Source of the DNA: Klenkia sp.
Lineage (GTDB): Bacteria > Actinomycetota > Actinomycetes > Mycobacteriales > Geodermatophilaceae
Reading direction: 5' to 3'
Assembly: GCA_025966215.1 (NCBI GenBank)
Contig: JAOPVM010000060.1
Span: forward strand, 1-11,768
DNA length: 11,768 nt
Below, piece by piece: positions 231 through 10,783 of the stretch. Position 1 is the stretch's first letter. Each line of letters starts with the position of its first letter. Made by a program: the position numbers and the translations under genes. The notes beneath the pieces were generated by a model. The model saw only the letters and a list, made by a program, of their open reading frames with translations. It had not been told where the DNA came from and did no database searches.

Positions 231-2066
231 TCAGGTCGGGGGAAGGCCGCCCTGACGGCCTGGGGGACCGGCCTCCTCCCGACCTCGACGGTCCTCGCGG
301 TGGGCGCGCAGCGCGAGCAGCGCGATGTCGTCCTCGGCCTGCTCGGTGACAGCAGACAACAGCTCGTCACAGAGGTCATCGAGGGGCTGGTGCCGGCTGG
401 CGGCGACTCGCTCGACCAGCCAGGCCCGGCCGTCGTCCAGATCGGTCCCGCGCCGCTCGATCAGTCCGTCGGTGTAGAGGAGCAGCCCGTCCCCGGGGTG
501 CAGCACCATCTCGTGGTCACTGCGCGAGCTGCCCGGTTCGGCACCCAGGATCCGCTCGGCCGGTGCCAGCAGGGCCCGCACCTCGCCGTCGGCTCGGACG
601 ACCAGCGGTGCGGGGTGGCCGGCGTTGGACCACTGCACGCGTCGGACACCGTCGACGGCGCGGTCGGGGCCGCGCTCGATGCGCATCGCCACGACCGAGG
701 TGAGCCGACCGACCCCCAGCCCGGTCATGGCGGCGTCCAGGGCCGTGAGGACCTCGGCCGGGGACTGGTGGAGGGTGTAGGCGATCCCGCGCAGCAGGTT
801 CCGCACCTGGGCCATGGTCGCGGCCGCGGTCTGGTCGTGGCCGGCCACGTCGCCCACCACCAGCCACGTCGCACCGTCCTGACACTGGAACGAGTCGTAC
901 CAGTCGCCGCCGATCTCGGCCTCCAGCACGGCCGGGCGGTACCGGTTGACGATCTGCAGGTGCGAGTCTCGGACCGGTTCGGTGAGCAGGCTGCGCTGCA
1001 GGGCCTCCGACATCGACCGGCTCGCCGCGGAAGCGGCGAGTTCGGTCAGGTGGGCCAGCGTGTCCCCGAGCACGCCGGCGACCTGGTTGGCCACCAGTTC
1101 CTGGAAGGTCCGGTAGTCCTGGTCCCGGCGGAGGTGGGGGCTCAGTCCGAGGACCAGGACACCCACGGGGGTGGCCCGCCCAGGTGGGGTGAGCGGCAGG
1201 ACGACCGCGGTGTGCGCCGCGCCGCTACCGGACTCCCCCGGTGTCACCACCGGCTCCCAGGTCCCGTCGATGTCGGACACGGTCTGTGCTGCGCCACCGA
1301 GCGCTGCGCGCAACCAGAGCTGGGCGTGCGCGTAGCCGAAGGGGGCGGTCGAGGACGGGATCCCGTGCCCGGCCCGGAAGGCCAGTGCGCTGGCCGTGTC
1401 CTCGGGGTCCTCCAGCAGGTACACCCCGGCGAACGGCAGGTCGGCGCGGTGTTCGGCGAGCACGGCGGTGACGGCAGCTGCGGCTTCCCCCAGGCCGGCG
1501 TGCCGGGTGGTCCCGAGCTGCGCGAGGTGTTGTGCCAGTTCCAGTCGCCGGGTGGCCAGCACACGGTCGGTGGTCTCGATGACGGTGTTGAGCAACCCGA
1601 CGACGCCACCACGGGGGTCGATGAGCGGGCTGTAGGAGTAGGTGAACCAAGCCTCTTCGGGGAAGCCGTTGCGGCTGGTCAGCAAGGGGAAGTCGGTGAA
1701 GAAGTTGGCTTCCCGGTCGGTCAGCACCGCCTCGATCATGGGCCGAAGGGTCGGCCACTCGTCGGCCCACACCTGGGCCAGCGGGCGCCCCATCGCCGGG
1801 TGGAGCGCACCCATGAACGGCGCGTACGCGTCGTTGTAGACCATGACCAGCTCCGGGCCTGCCATCACGAGCATCCCGAAACGGGTGTTCATGGCCGTGC
1901 TGATCGCTGCCTGCAGGACCGTCGACCAGGTCGTCGGAGCTCCGATGGGCGTGGCCGCCCAGTCGGTGGACAGGAACAGCTGCTGGCCCGCGCTCAGCTC
2001 ACCTGCGCCCAGCAGGGCCCTGAGGTCGTGCGTCGGGGGTTGAGCACCGTCGTCCCGGGAAGGCAC
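231..2066 (-). CDS. PAS-GAF-SpoIIE (PPM-type) serine phosphatase, RsbU/RsbP-like
   Basis: Cytosolic sensor phosphatase of 611 aa, expected to dephosphorylate a STAS-domain anti-sigma antagonist. Residues about 30-170 form a PAS-like sensor typical of actinobacterial proteins (DWAATPIGAPTTW, then a VYNDAY core). About 175-340 look like a GAF domain. About 350-590 are the SpoIIE/PP2C domain with its metal-site motifs intact: GGDWYD (386-391), GDVAGHD (405-411), SNAGHP (480-485), YTDGLIERR (531-539) and EDDIALL (578-584). No membrane segment is seen. The start is GTG at 2066, preceded by GGGGTGA with a 6-base gap. It lies 152 bp downstream of the RsbW-like gene on the same strand and is probably in the same transcription unit. 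It is a paralogue of the 656-aa phosphatase on the other side of that gene, with a clearly different sensor region. The signal sensed cannot be read from the sequence. Confidence 0.93.
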   Translation of the reverse strand: MPSRDDGAQPPTHDLRALLGAGELSAGQQLFLSTDWAATPIGAPTTWSTVLQAAISTAMNTRFGMLVMAGPELVMVYNDAYAPFMGALHPAMGRPLAQVWADEWPTLRPMIEAVLTDREANFFTDFPLLTSRNGFPEEAWFTYSYSPLIDPRGGVVGLLNTVIETTDRVLATRRLELAQHLAQLGTTRHAGLGEAAAAVTAVLAEHRADLPFAGVYLLEDPEDTASALAFRAGHGIPSSTAPFGYAHAQLWLRAALGGAAQTVSDIDGTWEPVVTPGESGSGAAHTAVVLPLTPPGRATPVGVLVLGLSPHLRRDQDYRTFQELVANQVAGVLGDTLAHLTELAASAASRSMSEALQRSLLTEPVRDSHLQIVNRYRPAVLEAEIGGDWYDSFQCQDGATWLVVGDVAGHDQTAAATMAQVRNLLRGIAYTLHQSPAEVLTALDAAMTGLGVGRLTSVVAMRIERGPDRAVDGVRRVQWSNAGHPAPLVVRADGEVRALLAPAERILGAEPGSSRSDHEMVLHPGDGLLLYTDGLIERRGTDLDDGRAWLVERVAASRHQPLDDLCDELLSAVTEQAEDDIALLALRAHREDRRGREEAGPPGRQGGLPPT

Positions 2067-2131
2067 GCCGGGTCACCCCACCGGGGCGGTCGGCAGGCCC
2101 GGACGGCGTCGCGGGCTGGGGACCCCGGCCT

Positions 2132-2158
2132 GGGACGGGTGCTGGGGCAGCACGCTCC
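2132..2158 (-). other. hairpin between the RsbW-like and phosphatase genes
   Basis: GTGCTG at 2139-2144 and CAGCAC at 2148-2153 form a 6-bp stem with a GGG loop, flanked by GGGA/TCCC (2132-2135 and 2155-2158) that can extend it over a small internal loop. It sits in the 152-bp gap after the RsbW-like gene. It could be a weak or partial terminator that lowers expression of the last gene, or an RNA-processing site. It is short, so the call is tentative. Confidence 0.25.
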
Positions 2159-2218
2159 CGAGGCGGTCACGGCTCAGGTCCGCGTCGCACCCGGCGCGGG
2201 TCCACCCGATGCCGGACC

Positions 2219-2698
2219 TCACGCCGTCGGCTTGTCCATGCACGCCCACACCAGCTTGTGGTCGGACTCGTAGTGCACTCCGTGAGCGGCGGTGAGGTCG
2301 GCGATCACGTACAGGCCGTATCCCCCGGCTCCGGCCGGCCGGTCCACCGCAGGGGCCGGGTGCACGTGCGAGGCGGCATCCCGCACGACCACGATCCATC
2401 GCTGGGGGTCATCACACACCTGCAACGAGGTCGGCGGCTGCCCGTGCCGCAACGCGTTGGACGTCAGCTCGTCGATGACGAGCACGGCCTTCTCGACGGC
2501 GTCCTCGCACGCCTCCTCCGAGACCAGGTCACACCCGGCCGTCAGGAAGGCCCGCACCCGGCGACGTACGGCGCTGAGCCCCCGCAGTGACTCCAGGACC
2601 AGGACCAGACGCCCGTCCCCCACCGCCTCAGGGGGTGCGGTGTCCTCGGTCCAGGACGCCAGTGCCGAGGCACGGTCATCGGGGGCCGGTTGCTCCAT
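2219..2698 (-). CDS. RsbW/SpoIIAB-like HATPase anti-sigma factor / serine kinase
   Basis: Small GHKL-fold ATPase of 159 aa. Such proteins bind and inhibit a sigma factor and phosphorylate a STAS antagonist. The N box is VIDELTSNALRHG (residues 74-86, Glu77 and Asn81 present) and the glycine-rich lid is GGYGLYVIADLTAAHG (125-140). The usual DxGxG box is reduced to DAAS (107-110), a kind of change I recall as common in actinobacterial members. ATG 2698 is chosen because GGAGGTGA stands 5 bases upstream. A longer reading from ATG 2767 adds 23 poorly structured residues and would overlap the previous stop as ATGA (2764-2767), allowing translational coupling, but it lacks a good ribosome site. The gene sits between two SpoIIE phosphatase genes on the same strand, a typical partner-switching arrangement. 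The cognate sigma factor is not in the window. Confidence 0.88.
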   Translation of the reverse strand: MEQPAPDDRASALASWTEDTAPPEAVGDGRLVLVLESLRGLSAVRRRVRAFLTAGCDLVSEEACEDAVEKAVLVIDELTSNALRHGQPPTSLQVCDDPQRWIVVVRDAASHVHPAPAVDRPAGAGGYGLYVIADLTAAHGVHYESDHKLVWACMDKPTA

Positions 2699-2703
2699 CC
2701 CGG

Positions 2704-2711
2704 TCACCTCC
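2704..2711 (-). promoter_or_regulatory. near-perfect Shine-Dalgarno deciding the RsbW-like start
   Basis: Read on the minus strand, GGAGGTGA matches the full anti-SD core and lies 5 bases before ATG 2698. Nothing comparable stands before the upstream in-frame ATGs at 2767 and 2764, so the shorter 159-aa product is favoured. Confidence 0.7.
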
Positions 2712-2763
2712 ACCTCATCCGCCGAGCTGAGTGAGGTGCGCGACCCCGGTTCGTGAGACCTCA

Positions 2764-4734
2764 TCATGCGGTGATCCGCCCCGCCACCTGCGATGTCCTA
2801 CCACCTCGGGTGCTGCCTGGACCGATGTCCGGGACGGCCGGGCTCAGCACCAGCAAGGCGATGTCGTCGTCGTTGTGGTCCTGACCGATCTCGGCGAGCA
2901 GCAGATCACACAGGTCCTCGGGTGCGGCGTCGCCGTGTCGCGCCAGAGCGGCCACCAGGCGGTCGATGCCCTGGTCCAGGTCGGCAGTGCGTCGCTCGAT
3001 GAGCCCGTCGCTGTAGAGCACCAGGGTGCTCCCCACCGGCACGTCGACCGTCTGCTCGGTCCGGTGCGTGCTGGGGCGCAGACCCAGCAGCAACTGCGGG
3101 CGGCCGCCGCCGAGTTCCTCGACGGTGCCGTCCCGGTGGCGCAGCAGAGGCGGTGGATGACCGGCGTTGGACCACCTCAACCGCCACACCGGGCCGACGG
3201 GGGTGGCGTGCTCGTCGAGTCGTCCGAGCACCGCGGTCGCCAGGGTGCCCATGCGCAGGCCCGCCATGGCTGCGTCCAGCCGGCTGAGCAGGCGCGCCGG
3301 GCCGGCGTCGCTGTCGTAGGCCATGCCGCGCAGGAGGTTGCGGAGCTGCCCCATCGTCGCGGCCGCCGTCCCGTCGTGACCGGTCACGTCACCGACGACG
3401 ATCGTGGTGGTCCCGTCCACCGTCGGGAAGGCGTCGTACCAGTCCCCGCCCACCTGGGCACCCAGGGACGCCGGTTGATACCGGACCGCGATCTGCAGCG
3501 AGGCGTTCGTCGGGGGCTGGGTGAGCAGACTGCGCTGCCAGGTCTCCGACATCTGCCGCGCCCTGCGGGCAGCTGCCCGTTCCGCCGTCGTTGCCCGGAT
3601 CCGCACCAGCACCTGGGCGCACTGGGCGGCGAACACCCGCAGCAGCTCCAGCTCGTCGGGGGCGAAGGGGTGCTCCTCGGCCCAGGCCACGGCCAGGCTG
3701 CCGACACACACGTCGTTGACGACCAGGGGCAGGAACGCCCAGCCGTTGCGGCCGATGTCGGAGTAGACCCCGGCCATCGACGCGTCGAAGGCCAGCCCCG
3801 CCTCCCGGGTGGGCAGCAGCAGCTCGCGGCTGGTGCGGGCCACCCACGGCGCAGGCAGGGGGCTGTCGTAGGGCACGTTGCCGTAGGCGAGCTGTACGTC
3901 CTCCCCGAGGGCCTGGCTCAGGGTGGCGCGCCAGCCACCACGGTCGTCCGGGGAGATGATCCCGCCGCCGTCGGCTCCCAGGACCGCCAGCCCGCGGGTG
4001 ACCACGATCCGTTCGAGGTCCTCCACGGTCTCGGCCGCGGTGAGCTCCAGGGCCACGCCGGCCAGGCTGGACAGCCGCCGAGCGGCGGTGTCCCGGGCCT
4101 CCTGGGCGACTGCCAGCTCCTGCATGCGGGCGTACAGCTCCGCCGCCACGGACTCCACGTCGCGCTGGTCGTCGTCTCGGTCCCGCCCCGCGGCACGATC
4201 GGCCCCGTCGTTCCGGTCCTGGGCCGTCAGCCCCGACGAGGCTGAGCTCTCCCGCACGAAGGTCGAGACGTCCTCGGTCCGTTGCAGCACCAGCACGGTG
4301 CGCCCGTCGGCGTCCAGCACCGGCGCGCTGATCAACGACCAGTACCGCTCGACCATCTCCCCCGTGCGCGCATCGACCACGCTGTACTTCGCGATGGGCA
4401 TCGGGTCGACCTGTCCGGTGTCCCGGGCACGTTCGAACGACACCCGGACCGGGTTCTCACCGTGCTCGTCCAGTGCGTCCGGGGCCGGCGGGAACGCCTC
4501 GAAGACCGGGCGCCCCACGATGTCCTCCCGCCGGCGCCCCACGAGGTTCAGGTAGGCGTCGTTCGCCTCGACGATGACCAGGTCGGGGTCCATCACCAGA
4601 TAGGCCGTGGGCAACGCCTCGAACAGCCGGGTGAAGTCGACGGCGACGCTCGGCACCACGTCACCGGATCCCGTGGCCGACCGCTCCGGCGCCCCCCTGG
4701 CCTGGTCGGCAGCGCCGCCGCGGGGACTCTTCAC
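2764..4734 (-). CDS. PAS-GAF-SpoIIE (PPM-type) serine phosphatase, RsbU/RsbP-like
   Basis: First gene of the minus-strand block, 656 aa, soluble. Residues about 33-160 are a PAS domain (DFTRLFEALPTAYLVMDPDL, then VEANDAYLNLVGR). About 185-222 is a charged, probably coiled-coil linker. About 222-380 is a GAF domain. About 395-635 is the SpoIIE phosphatase with GGDWYD (429-434), GDVTGHD (448-454), SNAGHPPP (522-529), YSDGLIERR (574-582) and NDDDIALL (621-628), so the Asp residues that bind Mn/Mg are all present. Expected role: dephosphorylate a STAS antagonist and so release a stress sigma factor from the downstream RsbW-like protein. The start is GTG 4734 with GGAAGGA 8 bases upstream. Its stop falls at or just before the RsbW-like gene, and the order points to co-transcription. 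It has no obvious haem or flavin signature, so the input signal is unknown. Confidence 0.94.
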   Translation of the reverse strand: MKSPRGGAADQARGAPERSATGSGDVVPSVAVDFTRLFEALPTAYLVMDPDLVIVEANDAYLNLVGRRREDIVGRPVFEAFPPAPDALDEHGENPVRVSFERARDTGQVDPMPIAKYSVVDARTGEMVERYWSLISAPVLDADGRTVLVLQRTEDVSTFVRESSASSGLTAQDRNDGADRAAGRDRDDDQRDVESVAAELYARMQELAVAQEARDTAARRLSSLAGVALELTAAETVEDLERIVVTRGLAVLGADGGGIISPDDRGGWRATLSQALGEDVQLAYGNVPYDSPLPAPWVARTSRELLLPTREAGLAFDASMAGVYSDIGRNGWAFLPLVVNDVCVGSLAVAWAEEHPFAPDELELLRVFAAQCAQVLVRIRATTAERAAARRARQMSETWQRSLLTQPPTNASLQIAVRYQPASLGAQVGGDWYDAFPTVDGTTTIVVGDVTGHDGTAAATMGQLRNLLRGMAYDSDAGPARLLSRLDAAMAGLRMGTLATAVLGRLDEHATPVGPVWRLRWSNAGHPPPLLRHRDGTVEELGGGRPQLLLGLRPSTHRTEQTVDVPVGSTLVLYSDGLIERRTADLDQGIDRLVAALARHGDAAPEDLCDLLLAEIGQDHNDDDIALLVLSPAVPDIGPGSTRGGRTSQVAGRITA

Positions 4735-5226: not shown

Positions 5227-6108
5227 GTGCCAGCCAGCAGCACAGACCCCACGGATGCCGGGGCACCCCCGGGAGACGGCCTGACAGGGCAGATCGCGGC
5301 CGGGGGCGTCGCTGATCCCGATGACCCCACCGACCCCGACCTCCCCGACAACCGGGCCGGCGGCACCGACGTCCTGGCCGGCCAGGGCGCACCTGCCTCG
5401 GGTCGAGGCGGTCTGGACCGGCACCGGATCGTGTCTGCCGCGGTGGCCTACATCGACGAGCAGGGCCTGCCCGCGCTGACGATGCGGAAGCTGGGCGCCG
5501 CGCTCGGCGTCGAGGCCATGGCCCTCTACCGCTACGTGCCCAGCCGAGAGGACCTGCTCGACGGGGTCGTGGAGATCGTCGTCGACGAGCTGTTCGCCGA
5601 CCCCGACGTCTACATCGCACCGCGCCACGGCTGGGAGGACTACCTCCAGCGCCTGGCCCACGGGGTCCGCCGGATCGCCCTGGCCCACCCGGCGGTGTTC
5701 CCCCTGGTGGCCACCCGGCCCCCTGCCGCGCCGTGGGTGCGCCCCCCACTGCGCAGTCTGCGGTGGGTGGAGTCCTTCCTCTCGGCCCTGACCACCCACG
5801 GCTTCACCCACGAACAGGCTGTGCTGGCCTACCGCGCCTACTCCAGCTTCCTTCTCGGGCACCTGTTGCTGGAGGTCGCCCAACGTGGGGTGGCGATCAA
5901 CGCCATCGACGATCCCGACGGTGCCGCTGACGTCTCCGCCGGCGAGCTGGCCCCCTACCCGCTGGTCGTCGAACTGGAGCCCCTGCTCACCCAGGACGAG
6001 TCCGTCACCGAGTTCGAGGAGTCCTTGGAGAGCCTGCTGGCCCGGCTCGGCGAACTGCAGGCACCTGGTTCCAACCGGTCACGGCGCCGCCCTCCGTCTA
6101 CCCCGTGA
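5227..6108 (+). CDS. TetR/AcrR-family transcriptional regulator with long N-terminal tail
   Basis: One-component DNA-binding regulator of 293 aa. The HTH domain is at residues about 63-118 (DRHRIVSAAVAYIDEQG, then LTMRKLGAALGVEAMALYRYVPSREDLLDGV), with the LYRYV recognition region typical of the family. About 135-275 resembles the all-helical TetR_C ligand-binding/dimerisation domain (FLLGHLLLEVAQRG). The start is GTG 5227 with GGAGG about 6 bases upstream, and no usable later start exists before the HTH. This leaves about 60 residues rich in Asp, Pro, Gly and Ala before the HTH, whereas most TetR proteins have about 5-20. It is divergent from the phosphatase operon and runs toward the PRC/DUF2382 genes. 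A perfect candidate operator begins at its own stop codon, so it may control those genes. The ligand is unknown. Confidence 0.92.
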   Translation: MPASSTDPTDAGAPPGDGLTGQIAAGGVADPDDPTDPDLPDNRAGGTDVLAGQGAPASGRGGLDRHRIVSAAVAYIDEQGLPALTMRKLGAALGVEAMALYRYVPSREDLLDGVVEIVVDELFADPDVYIAPRHGWEDYLQRLAHGVRRIALAHPAVFPLVATRPPAAPWVRPPLRSLRWVESFLSALTTHGFTHEQAVLAYRAYSSFLLGHLLLEVAQRGVAINAIDDPDGAADVSAGELAPYPLVVELEPLLTQDESVTEFEESLESLLARLGELQAPGSNRSRRRPPSTP

Positions 6109-6131
6109 ACAATCTCGCCCAGATTGTTTAC
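6105..6131. promoter_or_regulatory. 27-bp AT-rich inverted repeat, candidate TetR operator
   Basis: The arms GTGAACAATCT (6105-6115) and AGATTGTTTAC (6121-6131) are reverse complements apart from one position, separated by CGCCC. The inner 8 bp of each arm match perfectly. The element overlaps the TetR stop codon, and its AT-rich arms stand out sharply in this GC-rich DNA. The dyad symmetry and size suit a TetR-family dimer. It is placed where binding would block the candidate promoter immediately to its right. I saw no second copy in the window. An alternative is a transcription terminator for tetR, but a weak AT-rich stem without a U-tract makes that less likely. Confidence 0.55.
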
Positions 6132-6150
6132 CTCGTATAGCTGAGGGCAT
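6126..6150 (+). promoter_or_regulatory. candidate SigB/SigF-type stress promoter
   Basis: GTTT at 6126-6129, a 15-base spacer, then GGGCAT at 6145-6150. The known actinobacterial SigF/SigB consensus is GTTT, 14-17 bases, GGGTA(T/C), so this matches except for C in place of T in the -10. The -35 lies inside the right arm of the inverted repeat at 6105-6131. It would start a transcript near 6157 with a leader of about 155 bases before the PRC/DUF2382 gene. No good TTGACA/TATAAT-type pair was seen nearby. The assignment is by eye and rests on one mismatch. Confidence 0.4.
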
Positions 6151-6197
6151 CGGGAGTCCTGCAGACCGGATGAAGGCCTCGTCCGTGACCTGCGATC

Positions 6198-6215
6198 GCG
6201 GCCGGATTCGGCCGC
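6198..6215 (+). other. leader hairpin 1 upstream of the first PRC/DUF2382 gene
   Basis: GCGGCCG (6198-6204) and CGGCCGC (6209-6215) form a perfect 7-bp GC stem with a GATT loop in the presumed 5' leader. One base separates it from the next, larger hairpin. Confidence 0.45.
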
Positions 6216-6216
6216 C

Positions 6217-6244
6217 GCTGTCAGCCCCACCTGGGGCCGACAGC
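6217..6244 (+). terminator. leader hairpin 2: tetR terminator or attenuator of the PRC operon
   Basis: GCTGTCAGCCCC (6217-6228) and GGGGCCGACAGC (6233-6244) pair over 12 bp with one mismatch around an ACCT loop. It lies 109 bases after the TetR stop and 68 bases before the GTG of the PRC/DUF2382 gene. It could terminate tetR read-through. If the promoter at 6126-6150 is real, it lies inside the leader of the next gene and could act as an attenuator or stability element. Confidence 0.4.
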
Positions 6245-6312
6245 GCACCTCCCGTCCACACCGTGTCGACGTCCGTCGGCTCCGGTGTGCTGCCCCCACC
6301 CCAGGAGATCCC

Positions 6313-7137
6313 GTGATCACCGAGCAGGACATCACCACCGTCATCGGCTCCACCGCCATCGACTCCGACGGAGACAAGATCGGCACCGTCTCCGAGGTGT
6401 ACCTCGACGACCAGTCCGGGCGCCCCGAGTGGGCCACGGTCAAGACCGGCATGTTCGGCTCCAAGGAGACCTTCATCCCGCTGGCCGATGCCCAGCTGTC
6501 CGGGGGGTCGCTGTCCTTCCCCTACGACAAGACCATGGTCAAGGACGCCCCGAAGATCGAGGCCGAGGGTCACCTGTCCCCGGCCGAGGAGTCCGAGCTC
6601 TACCGCTACTACGGCATCGCCGAGGGCACCGCAGACGACCACGGCACCCGGACCGACACCACCACGACGACCGGTACGGCCGGCATCTCGGATGACAGCA
6701 CGCTCACCGGTACCCGTAACGAGGCCGGCACCCTCGGCCGCGACACCTCCGGTCCCATCACCGATGACGCGATGACCCGCTCGGAGGAGCGCCTGTCGGT
6801 CGGCACCGAGGCGGTGGAGACCGGCCGGGCCCGGCTGCGCAAGCACGTGGTCACCGAGCAGGTCACCCGCACCGTCCCGGTCACCCACGAGGAGGTCCGG
6901 ATCGAGCGCGAGCCCATCACCGAGGCCAACGCCGGTGACGCCCTCGACGGCCCCACGCTGTCCGAGGAGGAGCACGAGGTCACGCTGCACGCCGAGCGCC
7001 CGGTCGTGGCCAAGGAGACCGTGCCCGTCGAGCGCGTGCGACTGGGCACCGAGACCGTCACCGAGCAGCAGCAGGTCGCTGCCGAGGTCGCCCACGAGGA
7101 GATCGAGCAGGTCACCGACGACACCCGCCGCAGCTGA
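6313..7137 (+). CDS. PRC-barrel and DUF2382 (YsnF/AvaK-type) stress protein
   Basis: Soluble, very acidic 274-aa protein. Residues about 3-78 are a PRC-barrel (IGSTAIDSDGDKIGTVSEVY, then FIPLADA), a small beta-barrel used for protein or RNA contact. A Ser/Thr/Gly-rich linker with a run of five Thr follows (about 105-150). About 152-268 is DUF2382 (RSEERLSVGTEAVETGRARL, then RTVPVTHEEVRIEREP and PVVAKETVPVERVRLGTETV). B. subtilis YsnF, in the same family, is a SigB-dependent general stress protein. The biochemical function of the family is not established. The start is GTG 6313 with AGGAG 5 bases upstream. It is followed by a strong hairpin, then the membrane-protein gene. It is paralogous to the 8153-8977 gene and of identical length. 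Confidence 0.9.
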   Translation: MITEQDITTVIGSTAIDSDGDKIGTVSEVYLDDQSGRPEWATVKTGMFGSKETFIPLADAQLSGGSLSFPYDKTMVKDAPKIEAEGHLSPAEESELYRYYGIAEGTADDHGTRTDTTTTTGTAGISDDSTLTGTRNEAGTLGRDTSGPITDDAMTRSEERLSVGTEAVETGRARLRKHVVTEQVTRTVPVTHEEVRIEREPITEANAGDALDGPTLSEEEHEVTLHAERPVVAKETVPVERVRLGTETVTEQQQVAAEVAHEEIEQVTDDTRRS

Positions 7138-8152: not shown

Positions 8153-8977
8153 ATGAGCAGCGAACCGACCATCCCCCCGGTCATCGGCGCCATCGCCGAT
8201 GACCGCGACGGCACCAGGCTCGGGATCGTCGCGGAGGTCTACACCGACGACGTCACCGGGGAGACCACCTGGCTGGCCATCACCGACGGCCTGCACAGCA
8301 CGCGCACCACCCTGGCTCCCGCGGCCGGGGCCACCACCCGCACCGGACGGGTACGGCTCGCCGTCAGCGGTGACGCCATCGCCGCCGCCCCCCGCTTCCC
8401 GCAGAGCCAGCGCCTGGGCCCAGGACAGGAGACCGCCCTGCGCCGCCACTACGGCCTGCCCCTGCCCGGAACGGCCCCGGGCACCCGGGAGTACGTCCCC
8501 AGCCACCCGCGTCCAGCCGGCGACCCGACAGCAGGGGAGGTCGAGATGATCCGCTCGGCCGAGCGCCTGCTGGTCGACACCGAGGTGGTGCCCTACCGGA
8601 AGGCCGTGCTCCGGGTGGAGACCACCACCGAGGAGGTGCTGGTCCCGGTGACGATCACCCGGCAGCACGCCCGGGTGGAGTACGTGGACATCGAGCCCGC
8701 GGACGCCCCCGCCATCAGCCCCGAGCTGCTGATCGGCGGTCGTTCGACCGGTGCGACGAGCGCCTGGCTCACCCTCACCGTCGACGAGCCGGTGGTGAGT
8801 ACCCGCGCGGTACCGGTCGAGCGCGTGCGGATGGTCACCGACTGGGTCACCGGCACCCAGGACGTGCAGGCCGAGATCTCCCACGAGGTCATCAGCAACG
8901 AGGTCATCAGCAACGGGGACGCGCCGATGCCCGCACCCACCGCCACCGCACGATCGACCACGCCCACCCAGCACTGA
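8153..8977 (+). CDS. PRC-barrel and DUF2382 (YsnF/AvaK-type) protein, divergent paralogue
   Basis: Soluble 274-aa protein with the same architecture and exact length as the 6313-7137 product but much diverged. PRC-barrel at about 8-76 (VIGAIADDRDGTRLGIVAEVY), a Pro/Gly linker at about 103-128, and DUF2382 at about 130-246 (IRSAERLLVDTEVVPYRKAV, then EVLVPVTITRQHARVEYVDI and VSTRAVPVERVRMVTDWV). Compared with its paralogue it has fewer acidic residues and no poly-Thr linker. Near the C-terminus it carries EVISN twice in tandem (245-254), from a 15-bp exact DNA repeat, followed by a Pro/Thr/Ala tail. It sits 92 bp after the CmpX-like gene and may be expressed with it. The role is presumed to be stress-related by family membership; no enzymatic motif is seen. 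Confidence 0.88.
   Translation: MSSEPTIPPVIGAIADDRDGTRLGIVAEVYTDDVTGETTWLAITDGLHSTRTTLAPAAGATTRTGRVRLAVSGDAIAAAPRFPQSQRLGPGQETALRRHYGLPLPGTAPGTREYVPSHPRPAGDPTAGEVEMIRSAERLLVDTEVVPYRKAVLRVETTTEEVLVPVTITRQHARVEYVDIEPADAPAISPELLIGGRSTGATSAWLTLTVDEPVVSTRAVPVERVRMVTDWVTGTQDVQAEISHEVISNEVISNGDAPMPAPTATARSTTPTQH
8885..8914 (+). repeat. 15-bp tandem duplication inside the second PRC/DUF2382 gene
   Basis: GAGGTCATCAGCAAC occurs twice with no gap (8885-8899 and 8900-8914), in frame, giving EVISNEVISN. Identical codons in both copies suggest a recent slippage duplication at the end of DUF2382. Confidence 0.85.
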
Positions 8978-9678: not shown

Positions 9679-10407
9679 TCAGGTCGGTGTGTCCGACGCC
9701 GGGGCCAGGTCGTGCACCGGGACCGTCCCCTCGACCACGTGCCGGGCCAGGCTGTCCACCGTGGTCCCGCCGCCGTAGGCGTGCGCACGGAGTACGGCCA
9801 GGGCATCGGCGGAGGTGAGGCTCAGGCAGGCGTTGAGGACGCCCATCGCCTGCCAGACCAGCGACCGGTCCCAGGCGGTGGGGGCGTCCAGCCAGGCCGG
9901 CCCGCCCGAGTGGTCGGCGTCGGCCCCGTCGAGCCCCTCCAGGACGTGGGCGACCTCGTCGGCGACGGCCAGACAGTCAGCGAGCCCGAGGTCCCCGACC
10001 GCGCCGGGCGGGACCACGTACAGGTCGAGGGCACCCAGGTCACGCAGCCGCCCGGGCAGCTGGAGGGCGATGATGCCGCGGACCGGCGTCCGTGCCACCA
10101 GCTCAGCGGTGAAGGCCGGCCACTGCCGGGTCAGTCCGGCCTCGTCCGCGACGACCGGGCGACCCCGCTCGTGGGCCGCCAGGCACGGTCCCTCACCGAC
10201 GGTGAACTGCAGCCGCTCTGCCGCAGCCGCGACGTCGCCGCTGGCGCCCACGGGCAACCGACGCCCCGAGGAGAAGTAGAGGCTGATCCCCGCCCCGTAC
10301 ACCGGCAGCACCGAGGCCGCCGAGCGGGCCAGCCTCGAGGGCAGCAGCTCGGCACCCGGCAGATCGGTCACCGACCGCGCCATGGCATCCCGGAACGCGT
10401 TCAGCAC
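9679..10407 (-). CDS. GAF-ANTAR RNA-binding antitermination regulator
   Basis: Cytosolic regulator of 242 aa. Residues about 20-158 form a GAF sensor domain with the typical FTVGEGPCLAAHERGRPVVADE stretch split around residues 68-89. About 176-228 is an ANTAR three-helix domain (WDRSLVWQAMGVLNACLSLT, then ADALAVLRAHAYGGGTTVDSL and ARHVVEG), the RNA-binding module that suppresses terminators by stabilising paired hairpins. The GTG start at 10407 follows the STAS stop after a single base and overlaps GAGG-rich sequence at the STAS 3' end, so the two are very likely translationally coupled. An internal ATG at 10383 (residue 9) is a less likely start. Its RNA targets are unknown; I found no clear double hexaloop ANTAR target here. 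Confidence 0.9.
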   Translation of the reverse strand: MLNAFRDAMARSVTDLPGAELLPSRLARSAASVLPVYGAGISLYFSSGRRLPVGASGDVAAAAERLQFTVGEGPCLAAHERGRPVVADEAGLTRQWPAFTAELVARTPVRGIIALQLPGRLRDLGALDLYVVPPGAVGDLGLADCLAVADEVAHVLEGLDGADADHSGGPAWLDAPTAWDRSLVWQAMGVLNACLSLTSADALAVLRAHAYGGGTTVDSLARHVVEGTVPVHDLAPASDTPT

Positions 10408-10408
10408 C

Positions 10409-10783
10409 TCAGCCCTCGTCCTCGGCGTGGGCGATCAGCCCGGTGATGGTCAGGGCGCGCACCACCGTGTGCCGGTGGCCGACCCGCAGCCGCAGGTCGA
10501 TCCCGCGCTGCCGGCACCGGCTCTCGGCCTCGGCGACGACCCGGAGTCCCTCGGCGTCGAGGAAGGTCACCTCGGACAGGTCCACGACCAGGACCGTCGT
10601 CCCGGGGCGGTGCAACTGACCCGCGATGCAGGCGAGCAGCAGGGGGGCCGCCTCCCGGTCGAGCTCGCCGGTGACGGCGGCGACCACGGGCGGGCCGGGG
10701 CGGATGTGCACGGCGCACAGTGGCGCGTCGTCAGGGACGGGCGCGGTCGACGGATGCCAGCGACCGGGAGGTGGCGTGGACAC
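10409..10783 (-). CDS. STAS-domain protein (anti-sigma antagonist-like) lacking the phosphosite Ser
   Basis: 124-aa protein. Residues about 22-115 form a STAS domain: VVAAVTGELDREAAPLLLAC (33-52), then VLVVDLSEVTFLDAEGLRVV (64-83). In SpoIIAA/RsbV proteins the loop after the Asp reads DS(S/T)G and carries the phosphorylated Ser. Here it reads DAEG (76-79), so neither position has a hydroxyl and one is acidic. It may therefore be a non-switching or constitutive partner rather than a classical RsbV substrate of the RsbW-like protein in this window. The start is GTG 10783 with AGGA 6 bases upstream. It is the first gene of a two-gene unit with the GAF-ANTAR regulator. The Pro-rich first 20 residues are probably disordered. 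Confidence 0.88.
   Translation of the reverse strand: MSTPPPGRWHPSTAPVPDDAPLCAVHIRPGPPVVAAVTGELDREAAPLLLACIAGQLHRPGTTVLVVDLSEVTFLDAEGLRVVAEAESRCRQRGIDLRLRVGHRHTVVRALTITGLIAHAEDEG

Follow-up and report, generated by a model that had tools for sequence, protein, structure and literature searches.

Genes and features of the window

The window, i.e. the whole stretch of DNA analysed, consists of 11,768 bases with 72.6% G+C and belongs to a Klenkia draft genome of 2.92 Mb that is 73% complete. A gene for a TetR-type regulator is followed on the same strand by a PRC-barrel/DUF2382 gene, a CmpX-like gene and a second DUF2382 gene, and the sites discussed here lie around the tetR stop codon and in front of the PRC gene (Table 1).

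Table 1. Coordinates of genes and predicted sites in the window
Feature	Position	Strand	Remarks
PAS-GAF-SpoIIE phosphatases (two), HATPase, ANTAR-like (below cut-off) and STAS genes	231-4734 and 9679-10783	-	flank the unit
tetR-type regulator gene	5227-6108	+	293 aa; recognition helix VEAMALYRYV; TetR_N and TetR_C_1 above Pfam cut-offs
Predicted operator site 1, GTCTAC-CCC-GTGAAC	6096-6110	.	2 mismatches to GTTTACNNNGTAAAC; counterpart in 6 genus relatives
27-bp dyad	6105-6131	.	inner halves of the two sites (right of site 1, left of site 2)
Predicted operator site 2, GTTTAC-CTC-GTATAG	6126-6140	.	2 mismatches; 30 bp from site 1
Predicted -35 element GTTT	6126-6129	+	overlaps left arm of site 2
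Predicted -10 element GGGCAT	6145-6150	+	GGGCA at N15 in 7/7 Klenkia double-site promoters
Predicted untranslated leader	6157-6312	+	from promoter position; start about 7 nt past the -10
PRC-barrel + DUF2382 (YsnF/AvaK) protein	6313-7137	+	Pfam, TIGR02271; opens the controlled unit
CmpX-like protein, mechanosensitive-channel helices	7326-8060	+	PF05552; name CmpX from the first-pass annotation
Second DUF2382 protein	8153-8977	+	PF09557

The regulator is a TetR family member by its domains, with PF00440 at 34.8 bits and PF02909 at 42.4 bits, both above cut-off. It falls outside the tetracycline-resistance TetR equivalog NF010319 (NCBIfam), for which it scores 57.6 bits against a cut-off of 265. 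The best match among solved structures is 3bqy, titled an uncharacterised TetR-family protein, and the nearest characterised relatives by sequence are TetR classes B and D (1QPI), which have the TetR_C_1 domain in common with it and are found at E-values of 1e-11 to 1e-13 (single sequence).

The partner-switch type genes that flank the unit had been read as support for a link to a stress sigma factor. Across the orthologous stretches of 5-11 kb compared, which are the best 80 of 403 loci, just 11 show a relative of SpoIIE or HATPase, and this argument is dropped. Within the predicted leader, positions 6216-6245 display a strong GC-rich inverted repeat with 14-bp arms, situated between the promoter and the PRC gene. 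An Rfam scan of the window at gathering scores gave no match, this repeat included.

The dyad, the 15-bp palindrome and the neighbouring TetR

The sequence GTGAACAATCT-CGCCC-AGATTGTTTAC forms a 27-bp dyad, AT-rich, with 11-bp arms and one mismatch, beginning one base 5′ of the TGA stop codon of tetR (6106-6108), exactly as the first-pass annotation described it. No other dyad in the window combines arms of at least 11 bp with at least 59% A+T (loops of 0-12, at most one mismatch), and no AT-rich dyad of such length arose when the window was simulated 60 times with a first-order Markov model. GC-rich dyads of the same length are common in the window (29 overlapping entries versus a simulated mean of 6.0), thus the distinguishing trait of the dyad is its AT-rich make-up.

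A first search for the 11-bp arm GTAAACAATCT in 30 fetched loci, that of the window included, showed the arm elsewhere at L002 and L013 (one mismatch each) and at L026 (two mismatches). Read alone, this would have pointed to an arm that is not conserved. A 15-bp core was spotted by eye after the arm search, and the whole-genome and 80-locus counts given below were made afterwards. In several genera among the 30 loci, GTTTAC-N3-GTAAAC is situated between tetR and the PRC gene and is followed by GGGCA. Site 2 of the window aligns with this perfect palindrome of other genera.

Matches to the TetR are found in 59 of 60 genomes, its own included (E<=1e-3), with close relatives of 57-75% identity in most genomes of the family. 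An exact scan of the 60 genomes for GTTTACNNNGTAAAC gave 18 copies in 16 genomes, 14 of them no more than 500 bp from a close TetR orthologue; the reversed pattern, used as a control, is found in 2 of 60. The other four copies are not near a close orthologue (genomes G029, G031, G038 and G055), which counts against the reading of the palindrome as the operator of this TetR, as do the two mismatches carried by each of the window sites. No perfect copy is present among nine genomes of the window's own genus. When the pattern learned elsewhere is applied to the genome of the window with up to two mismatches, it falls at five places, two of which are the window sites, and the reversed control falls at one.

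Species genomes were then scanned with an alignment of 18 TetRs and the best 80 of 403 loci were taken, which are from Klenkia, Blastococcus, Geodermatophilus, Modestobacter, Trujillonella, Goekera, Arthrobacter and Actinoplanes/Paractinoplanes. In these best 80 of 403 loci, 60 sites with no more than one mismatch lie within 500 bp of tetR (134,216 bp), versus three in the 666,966 bp beyond; of these three, two precede a PRC gene and one lies beyond a CmpX-like gene on its 3′ side. At 60 of the best 80 of 403 loci a PRC gene lies no more than 1.3 kb away, and 58 of these 60 carry a site with up to two mismatches. The predicted operator is thus a short palindrome near the gene of its own regulator, as is expected of a TetR protein. 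The window shows no site with up to two mismatches before tetR. Variant sites flank tetR on both sides at 6 of 9 Actinoplanes/Paractinoplanes and 4 of 5 Arthrobacter loci (best 80 of 403), an arrangement that suggests self-control in those genera.

Three further arrangements of the palindrome were seen. In Paractinoplanes pyxinae (L165:659-673 and 1668-1682) a CmpX-like gene some 4 kb away from tetR has a perfect operator beyond its 3′ end and another operator, with two mismatches, ahead of its 5′ end. In five Arthrobacter loci (L153, L157, L169, L176 and L179) a second palindrome-like string, about TAAGCATGCTTA, adjoins the operator downstream of tetR, immediately ahead of it. An operator-like palindrome lies just 5′ of a STAS-domain gene (Pfam) in two Geodermatophilus genomes, at L116:5761-5775 (two mismatches) and L146:1723-1737 (none); neither is followed by GGG[CT]A, and a link from the repressor to partner switching is possible there.

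In Klenkia the palindrome appears as a double site. Two 15-bp sites precede the PRC gene in 7 of 9 genus genomes, namely the window and six relatives that include Modestobacter sp. Leaf380; the window TetR groups in the tree with TetRs of Klenkia (Geodermatophilaceae) and of this strain. Over the seven promoters the centres of the two sites are 30, 31, 31, 32, 32, 33 and 33 bp apart, and the gap between inner halves, which is the inner gap of the dyad, is 15 nt in the window and 16, 16, 17, 17, 18 and 18 nt in the six relatives. The N3 inside each 15-mer is fixed, as is the N15 from the left-arm tetramer to GGGCA; the tetramer is GTTT in five promoters and TTTT in two, both of which have GTTT one base upstream. 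The inner halves are the stronger ones, and the outer halves retain mainly TAC or GTA. The operator is thus best drawn as two predicted 15-bp sites, the mirror arrangement of whose inner halves forms the dyad. Five of the six relatives have tetR on the downstream side of the PRC genes; the double site is thus not just an extension of tetR. No such sites accompany the PRC genes of the other two genus genomes (G003 and G006) in the 350 nt read, and the sole close TetR listed for each is of the Ser type described next.

The recognition helix is VEAMALYRYV or nearly identical across the TetRs compared. Within AMA, the last residue (Ala99 of the window protein) is aligned to Thr40 of class B TetR, a residue that contacts the operator. 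Ser is found at this position in 12 of 80 TetRs (best 80 of 403 loci), seven of them CsbD-linked and of the Klenkia group and five of Arthrobacter. On the tree this requires two separate Ala-to-Ser changes, forced by well-supported branches, in a tree whose bootstrap had not fully converged. All twelve Ser-type loci have at least one CTTAC arm, and the Ala proteins mostly have TTTAC. Geodermatophilus and Blastococcus TetRs with the helix VEGMALYRHV keep the Ala, yet a GCTTAC arm is present at 10 of their 14 loci (best 80 of 403), and also at one VEAMALYRYV locus. Since GCTTAC arms occur beside Ala-type TetRs, the correspondence between helix and site is not strict. The two parallel changes with matching operator changes offer a ready case for studying how TetR proteins choose DNA.

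A Ser-type paralogue is also encoded in the genome of the window (L053). In relatives it is divergent from a CsbD gene, and 6 of 8 such CsbD-linked loci (L102, L105, L110, L120, L122 and L005) carry two CTTAC-N3-GTA sites, 32-33 bp apart, with one site in the other two. Beside L053 itself CTTAC-N3-GTA was not found, a point counted against the proposed pairing of helix and site.

The predicted promoter and its candidate sigma factor

SigB/SigF-class promoters of actinobacteria have the consensus GTTT-N14-17-GGGTA. The match GTTT-N15-GGGCAT reported by the first-pass annotation is exact. Sixty loci, those of the best 80 of 403 with a PRC gene within 1.3 kb, were counted for a unit of operator and promoter, and GGG[CT]A is found at GTTT-N14-16 in 57 of them (N15 in 41, N16 in 14 and N14 in 2). 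Elsewhere in these loci, 15 of 622 GTTTs (2.4%) are followed by GGG[CT]A at N14-16. The 20 loci left out consist of seven Klenkia CsbD-linked paralogues, three Klenkia loci with the PRC gene farther away, five of Arthrobacter, three of Paractinoplanes, L103 and L154. Three of the 60 show no unit as counted: L101 was counted on site 1, and its site 2 has the unit (as L073); L134 was counted from a PRC fragment, and the real promoter (L069) has the unit; in L172 the site with GGGCA sits before another gene.

The two arms of the operator differ in these 57 units. The left arm, on the promoter side, reads GTTTA in 57 of 57. The far arm on the right reads GTTTAC in 28, GCTTAC in 11, ATTTAC in 10, CTTTAC in 3 and otherwise in 5, and its outer GT is retained in 33. 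The search pattern, with up to two mismatches, weighs both arms equally and cannot itself create a left-right difference. Because the pattern treats the arms alike yet the arms differ, the extra constraint on the left arm points to its use as the -35. Thus the idea of a TetR-type operator on a stress promoter stands in that operator and promoter are both conserved across orthologous loci and have arm/-35 bases in common, but the operator is not the 27-bp dyad, whose geometry varies. The span proposed for it, 6105-6150, is correct as far as it goes and leaves out 6096-6104, where the first operator has its upstream half.

Operator and promoter are also found apart. At the five Arthrobacter loci the operator is downstream of tetR with no GGG[CT]A behind it, a point against the composite control site proposed below. 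Together with the existence of single-site and double-site forms, these Arthrobacter operators suggest that evolution can part TetR and its operator, as a pair, from their position in this type of promoter.

The genome of the window carries one SigB/F/G sigma gene (G000:C456:1837-2508) above the TIGR02980 cut-off, and such a gene is found above cut-off in 33 of 36 genomes. The -35 GTTT and its N15 distance to the -10 agree with the class. The -10 does not, being GGGCAT in the window; among the 57 units, 54 have C and 3 have T at its fourth position. Summed by hand over 22 genomes of the family, GTTT-N15/16-GGGCA is enriched (208 versus 57 reversed controls) and GTTT-N15/16-GGGTA barely so (55 versus 30), with 16 of the 55 GGGTA matches being one repeated string, presumably 16S rRNA. 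Four of 15 sigB loci, all outside Klenkia, have GTTT-N16-GGGTAG upstream of the gene, and the other loci have no match at all.

Seven PRC paralogues have no operator, none of them coming closer than 4 mismatches to the palindrome. Four of the seven carry GTTT-N17-GGGCA, and in the other three (L077, L078 and L081) no GTTT-N14-17-GGGYA was found. One of the four is in the genome of the window (G000:C61:2074-2099, L215), where GTTT-N17-GGGCA precedes a PRC/DUF2382 paralogue without the palindrome and offers a natural sigma-only control. A promoter resembling it, also GTTT-N17-GGGCA, is found at G000:C315:1174-1199 (L218) before a hydrophilic, repeat-rich protein with no Pfam match. In all, this genome shows seven GTTT-N14-17-GGGYA sites versus two reversed controls. 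Thirteen further such sites fetched from one Blastococcus genome include two before WhiB genes and two before DUF305 genes; six of the thirteen are inside a long same-strand open frame, and some may be chance.

This evidence fits a SigB/SigF-class factor without proving it: the sigma gene is present, but the -10 is GGGCA rather than GGGTA. It is also conceivable that the promoter is real and gated by TetR and that its sigma factor is outside the SigB/SigF class, with no link to general stress. The predominance of GGGCA in the units, the finding of GGGTA and not GGGCA upstream of sigB where a match exists, and the weak enrichment of GGGTA in the family would agree with this. However, the GGGCA form is itself enriched in the family, three units carry GGGTA at the same place, and the GGGCA form recurs at operator-free PRC paralogues and, in Blastococcus, before WhiB and DUF305 genes. 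A factor of another class is on the whole unlikely, though it deserves to be taken seriously.

A proposed composite control site and its alternatives

The region is quite likely a composite control site, in which a TetR repressor acting on two 15-bp operators would gate a GTTT-N15-GGGCAT promoter that is probably of the SigB/SigF class. Comparison among genomes shows the predicted operator, its pairing with this TetR, the predicted promoter and the bases that operator and promoter have in common. The TetR-class repressor encoded just upstream would bind both sites as dimers, and the operators, about three helical turns apart, would face about the same side of the DNA, so that in Klenkia two dimers would sit side by side, possibly with cooperativity. 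Site 2 overlaps the predicted -35 and most of the spacer of the PRC/CmpX/PRC promoter, and bound TetR would keep RNA polymerase from loading. A ligand may free TetR from the operators, after which a holoenzyme with an alternative, probably SigB/SigF-class, sigma factor would start near 6157. Output would then need both the right sigma factor and the release of TetR. This AND logic, sigma present and TetR absent, had been proposed for the locus; as a prediction it holds up, with an operator that was misdrawn.

Three other explanations concern the dyad and the palindrome. The dyad could itself be a single operator, for one TetR dimer or for two overlapping dimers: its arms carry one mismatch, it is AT-rich and unique in the window, and it joins the halves best kept in Klenkia. 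However, its inner gap changes over the seven Klenkia promoters while the N3 within the 15-mers stays constant, and the unit in other genera is the 15-bp palindrome. The dyad is thus rejected as a rigid operator, and an operator of this kind is improbable. Slightly less credible still is that the palindrome belongs to another regulator, with tetR merely a frequent neighbour. It would agree with five Klenkia genomes in which 2-3.5 kb separate tetR from the PRC promoter. But of the 63 sites with up to one mismatch in the best 80 of 403 loci, 60 lie no farther than 500 bp from tetR, similar variant sites lie on both sides of the gene in Actinoplanes/Paractinoplanes and Arthrobacter, and the site variant covaries with the recognition-helix residue in two lineages. 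A transcription terminator or RNA hairpin ending tetR would agree with the start of the dyad at the stop codon and with GC-rich inverted repeats nearby. The stem, however, is AT-rich and without a T run, and the double site precedes the PRC gene with tetR downstream in 5 of 6 Klenkia relatives, which rules such an element out here and leaves it hardly any credence.

The proposed two-site TetR control resembles known systems in part. The tet operator is a palindrome of about 15 bp with two 6-bp halves, as is the window operator, and the covarying Ala/Ser residue aligns with Thr40 of the tetracycline TetR. It differs in that the operator sequence is another one, there is no adjoining efflux pump and the operator is inside a stress-type promoter. 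QacR is a TetR regulator that loads two dimers on one region, and cooperative operators of its type have a fixed spacing between dimer sites. The two side-by-side dimers expected in Klenkia are similar, but the Klenkia sites are separate 15-mers about three turns apart with a variable gap (centres 30-33 bp apart, inner gap 15-18 nt in the seven promoters), and elsewhere in the family there is one 15-bp site. With SigB/SigF-class promoters the window has in common GTTT, the spacing, a -10 starting with GGG and stress-type genes downstream; the window family differs in having GGGCA for GGGTA (54/57 units) and an operator within the -35 and spacer.

General stress genes are usually switched by release of the sigma factor through partner switching. 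A ligand-type repressor seems to add an independent second lock to this promoter, one conserved across the Geodermatophilaceae, a family known to survive drying, radiation and bare stone. A wider proposal, tentative and somewhat short of an even chance, is that this TetR subfamily and its 15-bp operator span at least three families (Geodermatophilaceae, Micromonosporaceae and Micrococcaceae), with a ligand-operated gate on stress-sigma promoters in the first two. One operator arm would then double as the -35, Ala or Ser in the recognition helix would help select TTTAC or CTTAC half-sites, and the operator before an anti-anti-sigma-type (STAS) gene in some Geodermatophilus would let the repressor feed back on the sigma factor of its own targets.

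Being short and open to prediction from sequence, the site can be used to list a regulon. Further operator-plus-GGGTA units are found at L196:2084 and L197:2220 (G009 contigs 31 and 32); no relative of the window's TetR was seen in these 5-kb loci, and the unit of L197 precedes a PRC/DUF2382 gene.
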